The position numbers and the translations under genes were made by a program. From a virus, in the IMG/VR virus record IMGVR_UViG_3300029953_000039, positions 1-54,266 of that record: a stretch of 54,266 nucleotides of DNA; one strand, given 5' to 3'. Below the pieces are notes generated by a model. The model saw only the letters and a list, made by a program, of their open reading frames with translations. It had not been told where the DNA came from and ran no database searches. This document shows positions 50,996-54,266 of the stretch, in pieces; the stretch's first letter is position 1, and each line of letters begins with the position of its first letter.

Positions 50996-51016
50996 ACCCT
51001 AAAGTAACTTTAGGGT
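50996..51016. other. Near-perfect palindrome ACCCTAAAGT-A-ACTTTAGGGT
   Basis: Two 10-bp arms with one base between them, at the 3' end of the leftward gene at 51010; that gene's TAA lies inside. As RNA the 1-nt centre forces a 3- to 5-nt loop. It may end transcription of the 51010 gene or bind a regulator of the 50928 gene. Confidence 0.45.
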
Positions 51017-51780
51017 GCCTGTTCTTCGGCTTTTATTTCCGGCGATGATTTCTTTGCCAATGCTCGCACGAACTGCTTTTTGGAAAAATCCACAAAGTCA
51101 GATAGAGCGTCGAAATCATCGGCGGTTAGCTGCTGTCCAGTAAACACGAGCGTTGCTTCGTTTGCGCCGAGTGGAATTTTGTAGGTAGCTAGCACGTTTC
51201 CTTCTGGTTTTATTGGAGGATTTGGTGGCGGTTTGACTGCCGGGAGAGCAGGAGCATCTGGATCGATGGGGGGTGGATCGTTCTCTTCTTCGTCCTTTGG
51301 TACATCAAGTTTACTATTGGAATCGAGTTTGGCAAAGGCTTTGTTTGCCGTAAACGCCTTAGCCACTTGTTTTGCGCGATCAGGCTTAAAGTTGGATTGA
51401 ACTAAATGGCTTTCCAATACGGATTCGGAACAGTCCCCAAAGTCTCTTAGGAGCGCGGTGAAGGCCTTCGGCATCAAAGCAGATTCCCTGAGCGCATCCT
51501 CTTTTTGCTGGGCGCTAATAGGGTGGATGATTTTAACCGCGAGCGCAGTTACGGTTACTTTACCGCTGGGTCTTTCGATCAACCCATATTCACGTAAAGC
51601 TCCCAGCAAAGTGAGCACTCCGCCGTGAACAGTATTATACCCCATCGCTTTTGCTGCCGTAGCCGCATCAACCGCGCTTCGGCGGCACTCAGCGTGCAAT
51701 TTGGTTGTAAGCTCGACACACTTCTCAAGAGAAAGCGTGGGGGCGCGCGGGCTTCTTTCCTGTATTGATTCTTCGCTCAT
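51010..51780 (-). CDS. Winged-helix-like protein with disordered linker, 256 aa
   Basis: Leftward. Residues 15-150 read SLEKCVELTTKLHAECRRSA, VDAATAAKAMGYN, LLGALREYGLIERPSGKVTV and RDFGDCSESVLESHLVQSNF, a pattern I recall from bacterial and phage proteins with two small winged-helix domains. A Pro-rich linker (about 163-190) leads to a short C-terminal beta domain. Possible DNA binding; role unknown. Transcribed with or beside the tRNA gene. Confidence 0.6.
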   Translation of the reverse strand: MSEESIQERSPRAPTLSLEKCVELTTKLHAECRRSAVDAATAAKAMGYNTVHGGVLTLLGALREYGLIERPSGKVTVTALAVKIIHPISAQQKEDALRESALMPKAFTALLRDFGDCSESVLESHLVQSNFKPDRAKQVAKAFTANKAFAKLDSNSKLDVPKDEEENDPPPIDPDAPALPAVKPPPNPPIKPEGNVLATYKIPLGANEATLVFTGQQLTADDFDALSDFVDFSKKQFVRALAKKSSPEIKAEEQAP

Positions 51781-51914
51781 GCCCCAAATGTATAGATCAT
51801 ACGCTTAACGGCAAGTATAAATGTTGTATATCGAGTGTACCGATGTAAATTACTCTTGCATCCGGTACGAAGTTTGTTACGGTTGGTCTGTCGGGATTGG
51901 TTCTCGACAGCGAA

Positions 51915-51945
51915 AGCCCCGGTCATTCGTGAGAATGCCGGGGCT
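51915..51945. other. Strong hairpin between tRNA and 51780 gene
   Basis: AGCCCCGG-T-CATTC / GAATG-CCGGGGCT: 13 bp with one bulged T and a GTGA loop. On the leftward strand it is followed by TTTCGC. It lies 42 nt downstream of the leftward tRNA gene, so it may end the tRNA transcript. A smaller stem, CTGTCG/CGACAG (51888-51893 with 51905-51910), is next to it. The 206-nt region 51781-51986 has no convincing gene. Confidence 0.5.
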
Positions 51946-51986
51946 AAACCAAGACCAAGATGACCGAAACAACTTAAGTGCCTAAA

Positions 51987-52058
51987 TTGCAGAGGCGGGA
52001 GTTGAACCCGCTTTTTTCAGGTTATGGGCCTGACGGCTTACCGTTTGCCTTCTCCGCG
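51987..52058 (-). tRNA. Initiator tRNA-fMet (anticodon CAT)
   Basis: Leftward, 72 nt. Acceptor CGCGGAG with CTCTGCA pairs six bases and leaves C1 opposite A72 unpaired, the mark of bacterial initiator tRNA. D arm is GGCAAACGGTAAGCC; anticodon arm is TCAGG-CCCATAA-CCTGA with CAT in the middle; variable loop AAAAA; T arm is GCGGG-TTCAACT-CCCGC; discriminator A. The initiator GC pairs of the anticodon stem are only partly kept (G30-C40, G31-C39, but A29-U41). The CCA end is not encoded (TTT follows). Elongator tRNA-Met and tRNA-Ile(CAT) have a paired position 1-72, so initiator is the best call. Confidence 0.88.
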
Positions 52059-52184: not shown

Positions 52185-52946
52185 ATGCACGAGATAAAAA
52201 ATAGATGGACTGGAGCCGTAATTTTCACATCGAAGGATTCCGAAACCCTTTTACATGCCCTTGAAAGGGCCGTCGAAGAAAAAGTAAACCTCGACGGTGC
52301 CAGCCTCGTCGGTGCCAACCTCGTCGGTGCCAACCTCGACGGTGCCAGCCTCGTCGGTGCCAACCTCGACGGTGCCTACCTCGACGGTGCCAGCCTCGTC
52401 GGTGCCTACCTCGACGGTGCCAGCCTCGACGGTGCCAGCCTCGACGGTGCCAGCCTCGTCCGTGCCAACCTCGACGGTGCCAGCCTCGACGGTGCCAACC
52501 TCGACGGTGCCTACCTCGTCGGTGCCAACCTCGTCGGTGCCAACCTCGACGGTGCCAGCCTCGTCGGTGCCAACCTCGTCCGTGCCAACCTCGACGGTGC
52601 CAGCCTCGTCGGTGCCAACCTCGACGGTGCCAGCCTCGATTCCATTAGGAACGATTTTTGGGACGTACTGATTCGGGCACGGCATGAAATCCCTGAACTT
52701 CGCAAGCATTTGGTCGAAGGGAAAGTAGACGGCTCGGTTTATGAAGGTGAGTGTGCTTGCTTGGTGGGCACGATAGCTAATATCAAGCATTGTAAATATG
52801 ACGAAATTAAGGCGCTAAAACCCGATTCAACCAGGCCAATCGAATGCTTTTTTATGGGAATTAAAACCGGGGACACGCCGGAAACGAATCAGATTTCCAA
52901 AATCGTTGTTGGCTGGATAGACGAGTTTGAATCTTTACTGAAATAA
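52185..52946 (+). CDS. Pentapeptide-repeat protein, 253 aa
   Basis: N-terminal segment NRWTGAVIFTSKDSETLLHA, then about 23 pentapeptides A-(N/S/Y)-L-(D/V)-(G/R) at residues 35-150, which should fold into a right-handed quadrilateral beta helix. The C-terminal domain (IRNDFWDVLIRARHEIPELR, GSVYEGECACLVGTIAN, KTGDTPETNQISKIVVGWID) is a conserved companion of pentapeptide repeats in phages, as I recall. Some pentapeptide proteins mimic DNA and act on gyrase; whether this one does is unknown. The repeats show no synonymous change between units. Confidence 0.75.
   Translation: MHEIKNRWTGAVIFTSKDSETLLHALERAVEEKVNLDGASLVGANLVGANLDGASLVGANLDGAYLDGASLVGAYLDGASLDGASLDGASLVRANLDGASLDGANLDGAYLVGANLVGANLDGASLVGANLVRANLDGASLVGANLDGASLDSIRNDFWDVLIRARHEIPELRKHLVEGKVDGSVYEGECACLVGTIANIKHCKYDEIKALKPDSTRPIECFFMGIKTGDTPETNQISKIVVGWIDEFESLLK
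52287..52636 (+). repeat. 15-bp tandem repeat encoding pentapeptides
   Basis: About 23 units of GGTGCCNNCCTCGNC. Variation is limited to AAC/AGC/TAC, GAC/GTC and GGT/CGT (N/S/Y, D/V, G/R). GCC and CTC are identical in every unit. Confidence 0.95.
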
Positions 52947-52950
52947 ATTT

Positions 52951-53157
52951 ATGTCACGAAGCACAGACCCAAAAACGAAGAAGCTCACGGGATTTTTTTA
53001 CGAGGACGAGCACAGGTCAATCAAGAGCGACTGCGCGAAGCTCGGCAAGACTTTCACTGATTACGTTCTCCTTTTGCGTAAGGCTTACAACGCCAACCCA
53101 CCTTTGCGAGTCTCCGACTTGCTGAAAAAGAAGGACAAGAAAGTGAGCGCGTCATGA
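52951..53157 (+). CDS. Small basic protein, 68 aa
   Basis: ATG 52951. STDPKTKKLTGFFYEDEHRS, IKSDCAKLGKTFTDYVLLLR: a helical middle that resembles a ribbon-helix-helix regulator (strand, helix, TFTDYV helix). Ends Lys-rich. ATGA overlap with the next gene. Confidence 0.5.
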   Translation: MSRSTDPKTKKLTGFFYEDEHRSIKSDCAKLGKTFTDYVLLLRKAYNANPPLRVSDLLKKKDKKVSAS

Positions 53158-53402
53158 GTGCGCCTATTGCTGACGGCGGAGCGGCGTTCCCGTCAAGCGA
53201 GATGTACGATAATGAAGGTCGTGTGATTACCGTTTTCAAAGAAAACGGCATGACGCTGCGAGATTATTTTGCGGCGGCGAGTCTTCCGGTTCTTACGAAA
53301 TTATGGCAAGACGCGAGTTGCACCACAGACGCAGAATTGGTTGCAGCCGAGGCGTATCATATTGCCGACGCCATGATCGAAGCGCGAAAGGCCGTCAAAT
53401 GA
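53154..53402 (+). CDS. Conserved small phage protein, 82 aa
   Basis: GGAAFPSSEMYDNEGRVITV then NGMTLRDYFAAASLPVLTKL and AAEAYHIADAMIEARKAV. The GMTLRDYFAAxAL...AYxxADAMxxAR pattern is a widespread phage family I recall, of unknown function. Its stop overlaps the next ATG. Confidence 0.65.
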   Translation: MSAPIADGGAAFPSSEMYDNEGRVITVFKENGMTLRDYFAAASLPVLTKLWQDASCTTDAELVAAEAYHIADAMIEARKAVK

Positions 53403-53557
53403 TCCCCTCCCGCCTGCCTGCCCGCGCCCGGAACCTCGGCATCGCGTCCGCCGCGTGGCCTGTGAGCAATCTCACCGCCCAGGACATCATCAACATCGGG
53501 CGTGAAGCTCGTGACACCGAGCGCGTCGGAAAGATCACAACCAAACCACAGAAATAA
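53399..53557 (+). CDS. Hypothetical protein, 52 aa
   Basis: ATG 53399 in an ATGA overlap. Basic, Arg/Ala-rich start (IPSRLPARARNLGIASAAWP), polar end. Not recognised. Confidence 0.5.
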   Translation: MIPSRLPARARNLGIASAAWPVSNLTAQDIINIGREARDTERVGKITTKPQK

Positions 53558-53567
53558 AAACCACCTC

Positions 53568-54266
53568 ATGAAAACCAAAGACCAACTCATTTTAGAAGCT
53601 ACTTGCCCGTCGTCGCTTTCTCGCGCTCAAATCGGATGGCTTTCTCGCGCTCAAATCGGAGGGCTTTCTCCCGATCAAATCGGATGGCTTTCTCCCGATC
53701 AAATCGGATGGCTTTCTCGCGCTCAAATCGGAGGGCTTTCTCCCGATCAAATCGGATGGCTTTCTCCCGATCAAATCGGATGGCTTTCTCCCGATCAAAT
53801 CGGATGGCTTTCTCGCGCTCAAATCGGAGGGCTTTCTCCCGATCAAATCGGAGGGCTTTCTCGCGCTCAAATCGGATGGCTTTCTCCCGATCAAATCGGA
53901 GGGCTTTCTCGCGCTCAAATCGGATGGCTTTCTCGCGCTCAAATCGGATGGCTTTCTCCCGATCAAATCGGATGGCTTTCTCGCGCTCAAATCGGATGGC
54001 TTTCTCGCGCTCAAATCGGATGGCTTTCTCCCGATCAAATCGGAGGGCTTTCTCGCGCTCAAATCGGATGGCTTTCTCGCGCTCAAATCGGAGGGCTTTC
54101 TCGCGCTCAAATCGGAGGGCTTTCTCGCGCTCAAATCGGATGGCTTTCTCCCGATCAAATCGGAGGGCTTTCTCCCGATCAAATCGGAGGGCTTTCTCGC
54201 GCTCAAATCGGATGGCTTTCTCCCGATCAAATCGGATGGCTTTCTCCCGATCAAATCGGATGGCTT
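53568..54266 (+). CDS. Octapeptide-repeat protein, N-terminal part (continues at 1)
   Basis: ATG 53568 gives MKTKDQLILEATCPSS and then, from residue 17, L-S-(PD or RA)-Q-I-G-(W or G) without a break to the window end. This makes 27 full units here; nine more follow at the left edge, then a unique WHTCETTHC domain, for a total of at least 36 units and about 415 residues. The unit length (8) differs from pentapeptide repeats, but the C-terminal domain is the type I recall behind such repeats. The repeat number is uncertain because the assembly breaks inside it. Confidence 0.8.
   Translation, partial: MKTKDQLILEATCPSSLSRAQIGWLSRAQIGGLSPDQIGWLSPDQIGWLSRAQIGGLSPDQIGWLSPDQIGWLSPDQIGWLSRAQIGGLSPDQIGGLSRAQIGWLSPDQIGGLSRAQIGWLSRAQIGWLSPDQIGWLSRAQIGWLSRAQIGWLSPDQIGGLSRAQIGWLSRAQIGGLSRAQIGGLSRAQIGWLSPDQIGGLSPDQIGGLSRAQIGWLSPDQIGWLSPDQIGWL
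53616..54266 (+). repeat. 24-bp tandem repeat array, right part
   Basis: 27 in-phase units plus three bases. With P for CCCGAT and R for CGCGCT, then W or G, the order is RW RG PW PW RG PW PW PW RG PG RW PG RW RW PW RW RW PG RW RG RG RW PG PG RW PW PW. No unit has any other base change. Confidence 0.98.

Follow-up and report, generated by a model that had tools for sequence, protein, structure and literature searches.

The window (the whole stretch of DNA analysed, 54,266 bases) is a tailed-phage genome with helicase, large terminase, portal, capsid and tape-measure genes, and it carries on its minus strand a real, phage-encoded tRNA gene of the initiator type. A phage initiator tRNA is known in itself; what stands out is a core without U8 combined with the initiator elements. 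The sequence of the gene, its fold, its initiator identity elements, the covariation within a family of relatives and the location in a phage genome are directly observed. The reading we favor, which we consider reasonably probable, is that of an initiator tRNA from a divergent phage and plasmid lineage, matured by the host, formylated and serving as an extra or back-up initiator, with an altered body that keeps it usable when the host tRNA is scarce or attacked.

The tRNA gene and its initiator elements

The gene is 72 nt long, has the anticodon CAU and runs from base 52058, which is tRNA position 1, to base 51987. Its full sequence reads CGCGGAG AA GGCAAACGGTAAGCC G TCAGG CCCATAA CCTGA AAAAA GCGGG TTCAACT CCCGC CTCTGCA A, and the parts are located in Table 1. 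The CCA end has no genomic encoding: A73 is followed by TTT. An earlier note on this DNA had placed a tRNA here, and had correctly read the CAT anticodon, the C1-A72 mismatch and the lack of an encoded CCA; the minus strand, A8, C33, A48 and the A13 x A22 opposition were absent from it.

In a search of the whole window, the Rfam tRNA model scores the gene at 53.2 bits (E 1.1e-8; gathering score 29). Two further covariance models were built, R1 from the 29 closest relatives with the window tRNA left out, and R2 from 30 canonical phage initiators. R1 gives 87.2 bits (E 5e-20) for the window tRNA, its sole match in the window, and R2 gives 73.5 bits; the non-CAU tRNAs of two other loci (L003 and L278) score below it with R2 in the same test. 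The R1 and R2 scores indicate a tRNA of the initiator type, not an elongator-like one or a random match, and the Rfam and R1 models together give a full cloverleaf with the CAU anticodon. The covariance models, to which the earlier note had looked for a decision between initiator, elongator and pseudo-tRNA, thus place the gene computationally with the initiators. ARAGORN, which it had also named, calls no tRNA in the window; U8-less tRNA genes can escape a standard gene finder of this kind.

Table 1. Features of the tRNA gene and of the region downstream of it (window coordinates)
Feature	Position	Strand	Basis
tRNA gene, initiator-type, CAU, 72 nt without CCA	51987..52058	-	Rfam 53.2, R1 87.2, R2 73.5 bits
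5' side of the acceptor stem, CGCGGAG; partner strand 51988-51994, C1 x A72 open	52052..52058	-	sequence; family covariation
Positions 8-9, AA, with A8 replacing U8	52050..52051	-	A8 in 28 of 30 family members
D arm GGCAAACGGTAAGCC, 3-bp stem, A13 x A22, G11:C24	52035..52049	-	sequence; pattern search finds it in 21 further viral CAU tRNAs
Anticodon arm TCAGG CCCATAA CCTGA; G30:C40, G31:C39, A29:U41	52017..52033	-	sequence
C33; anticodon CAU	52027; 52026-52024	-	sequence
Variable loop AAAAA, with A48 replacing C48	52012..52016	-	A48 in 30 of 30 family members
T arm GCGGG TTCAACT CCCGC, acceptor 3' strand CTCTGCA, A73, no encoded CCA	51987..52011	-	sequence
Strong hairpin AGCCCCGGCATTCTCACGAATGACCGGGGCT then TTT, 41 nt downstream of the tRNA, inside a larger fold	51915..51945	-	candidate terminator, RNA fold

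Could the gene instead encode an elongator tRNA-Met or a tRNA-Ile2 (lysidine)? The CAU anticodon is common to all three types, and among the best phage matches, which extend along part of the gene, are tRNA-Ile genes and elongator-like tRNA-Met genes. Position 1:72 of the window tRNA, however, is C x A without a Watson-Crick pair, and this openness is conserved in the family (27 of 29 relatives). Position 11 is a purine and 24 a pyrimidine (G11:C24); two of the three anticodon-stem pairs 29-31:39-41 are G:C (G30:C40, G31:C39), the third being A29:U41; A37 and A73 are carried as in bacterial initiator tRNA-fMet. The initiator models, moreover, score the window tRNA far above the non-CAU tRNAs. 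On the state of 1:72 and the model scores, we reject an elongator or Ile2 identity as very improbable.

The A29:U41 pair, to which the earlier note had attached a possible effect on P-site behavior, is indeed present, and its special significance does not hold up. Among the 129 distinct canonical initiators parsed for comparison (75 viral, 54 bacterial), AGG at 29-31, the A29:U41 type, is found in 33 of the viral and 15 of the bacterial ones. We reject it as a special mark; it is a common natural variant. The same note had called a phage initiator uncommon; that it would be exceptional is not borne out. With E. coli tRNA-fMet as the query, 411 phage records are matched among 50,697, and 304 of them cover at least 80% of the query; many of those phage matches are Mycobacterium, Aeromonas and Caulobacter phages. 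An initiator-pattern scan of IMG/VR adds at least 120 stretches, and S. meliloti phiLM21-like prophages have been published with tRNA-Met and tRNA-fMet genes (PMC12429752). An initiator tRNA is a minority trait in phages, yet one already well documented.

A family of CAU tRNAs without U8

We turn to the tertiary core. U8 is among the most conserved bases of tRNA and is near-universal, and U33 is the usual rule in the anticodon loop. In the canonical comparison set, U8 is present in 128 of 129 distinct sequences and C48 in 127 of 129. The window tRNA has neither U8:A14 nor R15:Y48; it has A8 in place of U8, A15 and A48 in place of an R15:Y48 pair, A13 x A22, and C33 in place of U33.

Does this core exist in other tRNAs with the same anticodon? 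The family is defined here by a base other than U at position 8, A48, a D arm of the form GGNAA..GG.AA.CC and an open or weak 1:72, a definition into which the window tRNA falls. A search with the D-arm pattern yields 22 viral stretches, 21 of which are tRNAs as judged by their flanks. A wider pattern that excludes U8 yields 66 stretches, the earlier D-arm ones included; 54 of them (the window tRNA among these) fold into good cloverleaves and 32 are distinct, so that there are at least 32 distinct U8-less sequences. The search pattern fixed the D arm and the anticodon loop and excluded U8, but it left 44 and 48 unconstrained and allowed A, C or G alike at position 8. Thirty distinct family members have a variable loop of 5 bases; of these, 28 carry A and 2 carry C at position 8, and every one has A at both 44 and 48. 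Comparison of these A8/A48 counts with the U8/C48 counts of canonical initiators indicates that the loss of U8 accompanies the loss of the 15:48 pair. G11:C24, G30:C40, CAU and A37 are also present in the family, several of these being set by the search pattern.

In the alignment of the 29 relatives, 94% of the pair cells form and 14 of the 20 pairs have changed on both sides; none of the slid controls comes close to the real pairing. The sole position kept unpaired is 1:72 (open in the 27 relatives noted above), and the other acceptor pairs covary. The covariation speaks strongly for the fold, and covarying stems around an open 1:72 are what a functional initiator family would be expected to look like. 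The window's exact pattern of variable loop and T arm has no other viral match.

This alignment also bears on the suggestion that the gene is a decaying pseudo-tRNA, formerly functional, from which U8, U33, the Levitt pair and CCA are being lost. A8, C33, A48, A13 x A22 and the missing CCA are each unusual, ARAGORN misses the gene, and some of the relatives on plasmids have a damaged anticodon loop. The odd core features, however, are common to a covarying family, and the stems of the window tRNA are all intact with its differences from the relatives compensated, which makes a pseudogene improbable. The lack of an encoded CCA does set the window tRNA apart from most relatives, in which it is encoded.

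The main rival is plain extra supply, according to which the tRNA is an ordinary additional initiator that raises the initiation rate, and the core changes are neutral drift under relaxed phage selection. Phage initiators are common, and non-U8 tRNAs with A48 are also found in other phage isotypes, so that the core change need not be tied to initiation. On the other side, A48, A44 and A8 are nearly invariant in the 30 family members while the stems diverge, which looks like constraint rather than drift; C33 comes in addition. We regard plain supply as possible, at a probability well short of that of the favored reading of a spare initiator with a body altered for use when the host tRNA fails. 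The family has dropped U8 and 15:48 and kept the initiator elements, and hence it is a natural test of which core parts initiation needs.

The absence of U8 extends beyond CAU tRNAs. About 21 of 340 (~6%) parsed non-CAU phage tRNAs are without it, many with A48, against 0 of 72 in bacterial loci; they include His, Trp, Glu, Thr, Tyr, Ser, Asp and Phe tRNAs (in L003, L008, L272 and other IMG/VR loci). These counts point to the core change as a wider phage habit, of which the initiator family is one clear case. Searches of open-licence papers, in which 'U8' was unusable as a query word, gave no account of an initiator class that has A48 and lacks U8. A Type-P5 twister ribozyme is seen near a U8-less tRNA in one viral contig (L268 10455-10564, minus strand).

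C33 is restricted within the family to the window tRNA and two others (L321 and L295). Elsewhere it occurs in 13 IMG/VR stretches matching an initiator pattern and in 16 of the 340 (~5%) parsed non-CAU phage tRNAs. Initiators with C33 are also frequent in Saccharibacteria, Phycisphaerae, Erysipelotrichaceae/Bacilli MAGs and Oenococcus (loci L137-L254). C33 as an initiator-specific or phage-specific mark is ruled out by these several bacterial lineages and the share among non-CAU phage tRNAs.

Relatives in phages, plasmids and bacteria

The named member of the family is from Sinorhizobium phage phiM5, and many IMG/VR members are contigs of 45-56 kb. The phiM5 tRNA-Met, to which R1 gives 89.9 bits, shares the D arm and A8 with the window tRNA and differs in a U1:A72 pair, U33, an encoded CCA and a U31 x U39 mismatch. 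Both phiM5 and the phiLM21-like prophages (PMC12429752) resemble the window in having a single CAU tRNA in a phage of 44-55 kb. The tRNA of Mesorhizobium phage vB_MseS-P1 (L330) has an open A1 x A72 and related D and anticodon arms, like the window tRNA, but keeps U8, G15 and C48; a canonical core therefore exists beside the U8-less family.

With a family sequence as the query, 121 plasmid records are matched, nearly all from Sinorhizobium. An anticodon-loop insertion is present in two of the four plasmid copies read, and those two look broken. On two Sinorhizobium plasmids, L332 (NZ_CP088116.1) and L334 (NZ_CP011000.1), the U8-less CAU tRNA lies near extra acpP and groES/groEL, that is, spare copies of core host genes. 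In a model search of 398 Pseudomonadota genomes no U8-less copy was found; the filters of this large search were stricter, so the result limits rather than proves absence, and the same model did recover six positive records. The host of the window phage is likely alphaproteobacterial.

Compared with bacterial tRNA-fMet (E. coli metZ/metY and the alphaproteobacterial form), the window tRNA is alike in CAU, the open C1 x A72, R11:Y24, G30:C40, G31:C39, A37 and A73, and its A29:U41 is also seen in many natural copies. It differs by having A8, A15/A48, A13 x A22, C33 and no encoded CCA, where the bacterial tRNA has U8, G15:C48 and U33. The C33 initiators of Saccharibacteria, Phycisphaerae, Erysipelotrichaceae and Oenococcus have the same CCCATAA loop as the window tRNA and differ in the core, with canonical U8 and C48 in 51 of the 53 distinct ones parsed.

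Proposed function and genomic setting

What would such a tRNA do for the phage? It would most likely serve as a functional spare initiator, and its identity elements suggest that it would be transcribed, charged, formylated and used in initiation. Transcription may run leftwards over the tRNA as a short unit of its own, from the gap of 126 bases that separates the tRNA gene from the pentapeptide-repeat gene (52185 on), and possibly ends at the hairpin at 51945-51915 and its TTT. The host would then add CCA, host MetRS would charge the tRNA, the open 1:72 would permit formylation, and the product would act at start codons, either supplementing the host initiator or standing in for it. With no U8, with A48 and with C33, it would most likely stay usable when the cell is short of its own initiator tRNA, or when tRNA-targeting enzymes of the host cut or modify that host tRNA.

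Escape from host enzymes that attack tRNA is plausible, and is held at clearly lower confidence than the other steps. In Bosea (Hyphomicrobiales), a VapC cuts tRNA-fMet (PMC8522696). Phage tRNAs often show anticodon-loop changes predicted to block nucleases, yet the study that describes them also reports a tendency of phages to leave out tRNA-fMet where it is a VapC target (PMC10264068); with precedents on both sides, evasion counts as plausible. The window tRNA is like the putatively nuclease-resistant phage tRNAs of that study in being phage-encoded with a loop change, here C33 in a VapC-targetable tRNA type. It differs in being of the initiator type usually avoided there, and its resistance is a candidate property. 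The family as a whole supplies candidate tRNAs that may escape host tRNA-cleaving defences. A bolder form of this idea, about which we are rather doubtful, takes the tRNAs of phages and rhizobial plasmids as a separate initiator class with a rebuilt core (no U8, no 15:48 Levitt pair, sometimes C33), which the host enzymes that recognise or cut tRNA-fMet would ignore, giving a protected initiator that takes over initiation during infection.

The earlier note had also proposed a role in re-initiation, citing many GTG and TTG starts. By a crude gene model the window has 60 ATG, 13 GTG and 11 TTG starts (~71% ATG), an ordinary usage, so the premise is weak and start-codon use lends the special role no support. 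Since re-initiation in E. coli requires the same initiator features as ordinary initiation (PMC2268962), nothing singles it out.

Might the gene instead serve lysogeny, either by replacing a host tRNA-fMet gene broken by integration or as part of attP? Lysogeny dependent on a tRNA is known in actinobacteriophages (PMC10865867), and in S. meliloti the phiLM21-like prophages have CAU tRNAs and are themselves integrated in tRNA genes; in these prophages, however, the phage tRNA never matches the tRNA of the integration site (PMC12429752). The window gene covers a whole tRNA and not just its 3' part, and neither the large ORFs of the window nor the additional ones scanned yielded an integrase. The sole 'integration and excision' match is a weak one to a transposase family, and the same protein is a phage metallopeptidase by Pfam. 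With no integrase in the ORFs scanned, we reject an attachment site, and consider this use or tRNA-dependent lysogeny extremely improbable.

The place of the tRNA gene in the genome follows from a related contig. A capsid-protein search finds three near-identical contigs (40, 8 and 5.5 kb), none of which covers the tRNA locus. The 40 kb contig, whose capsid protein is 100% identical, matches window positions 1-38907 and then 52644-53962 in one run; it stops short of 38.9-52.6 kb and is uninformative on the tRNA itself. From this single run we conclude that the window ends join and that the tRNA lies within a genome that is essentially complete, and not in a host flank.

No clear sigma-70 promoter was found upstream of the tRNA on the minus strand. 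In the interval that separates the tRNA from the leftward gene (51780), the minus-strand RNA of 51860-51975 has a fold of -43.8 kcal/mol (z -4.3). The hairpin at 51945-51915 was not called in a consensus terminator scan, and the predicted, very stable fold around it may be more than a terminator. A search with the protein beside the tRNA (51010-51780) turned up no relatives in IMG/VR. On the other side, the highly regular pentapeptide-repeat protein (52185-52946, plus strand) adjoins the tRNA, and its repeat DNA resembles the pentapeptide genes of many phages. A long array of 24-base units (AQIGWLSR / PDQIGGLS) spans the contig ends (53502-54266 and 1-226), and its length is unequal between the window and the related contig.
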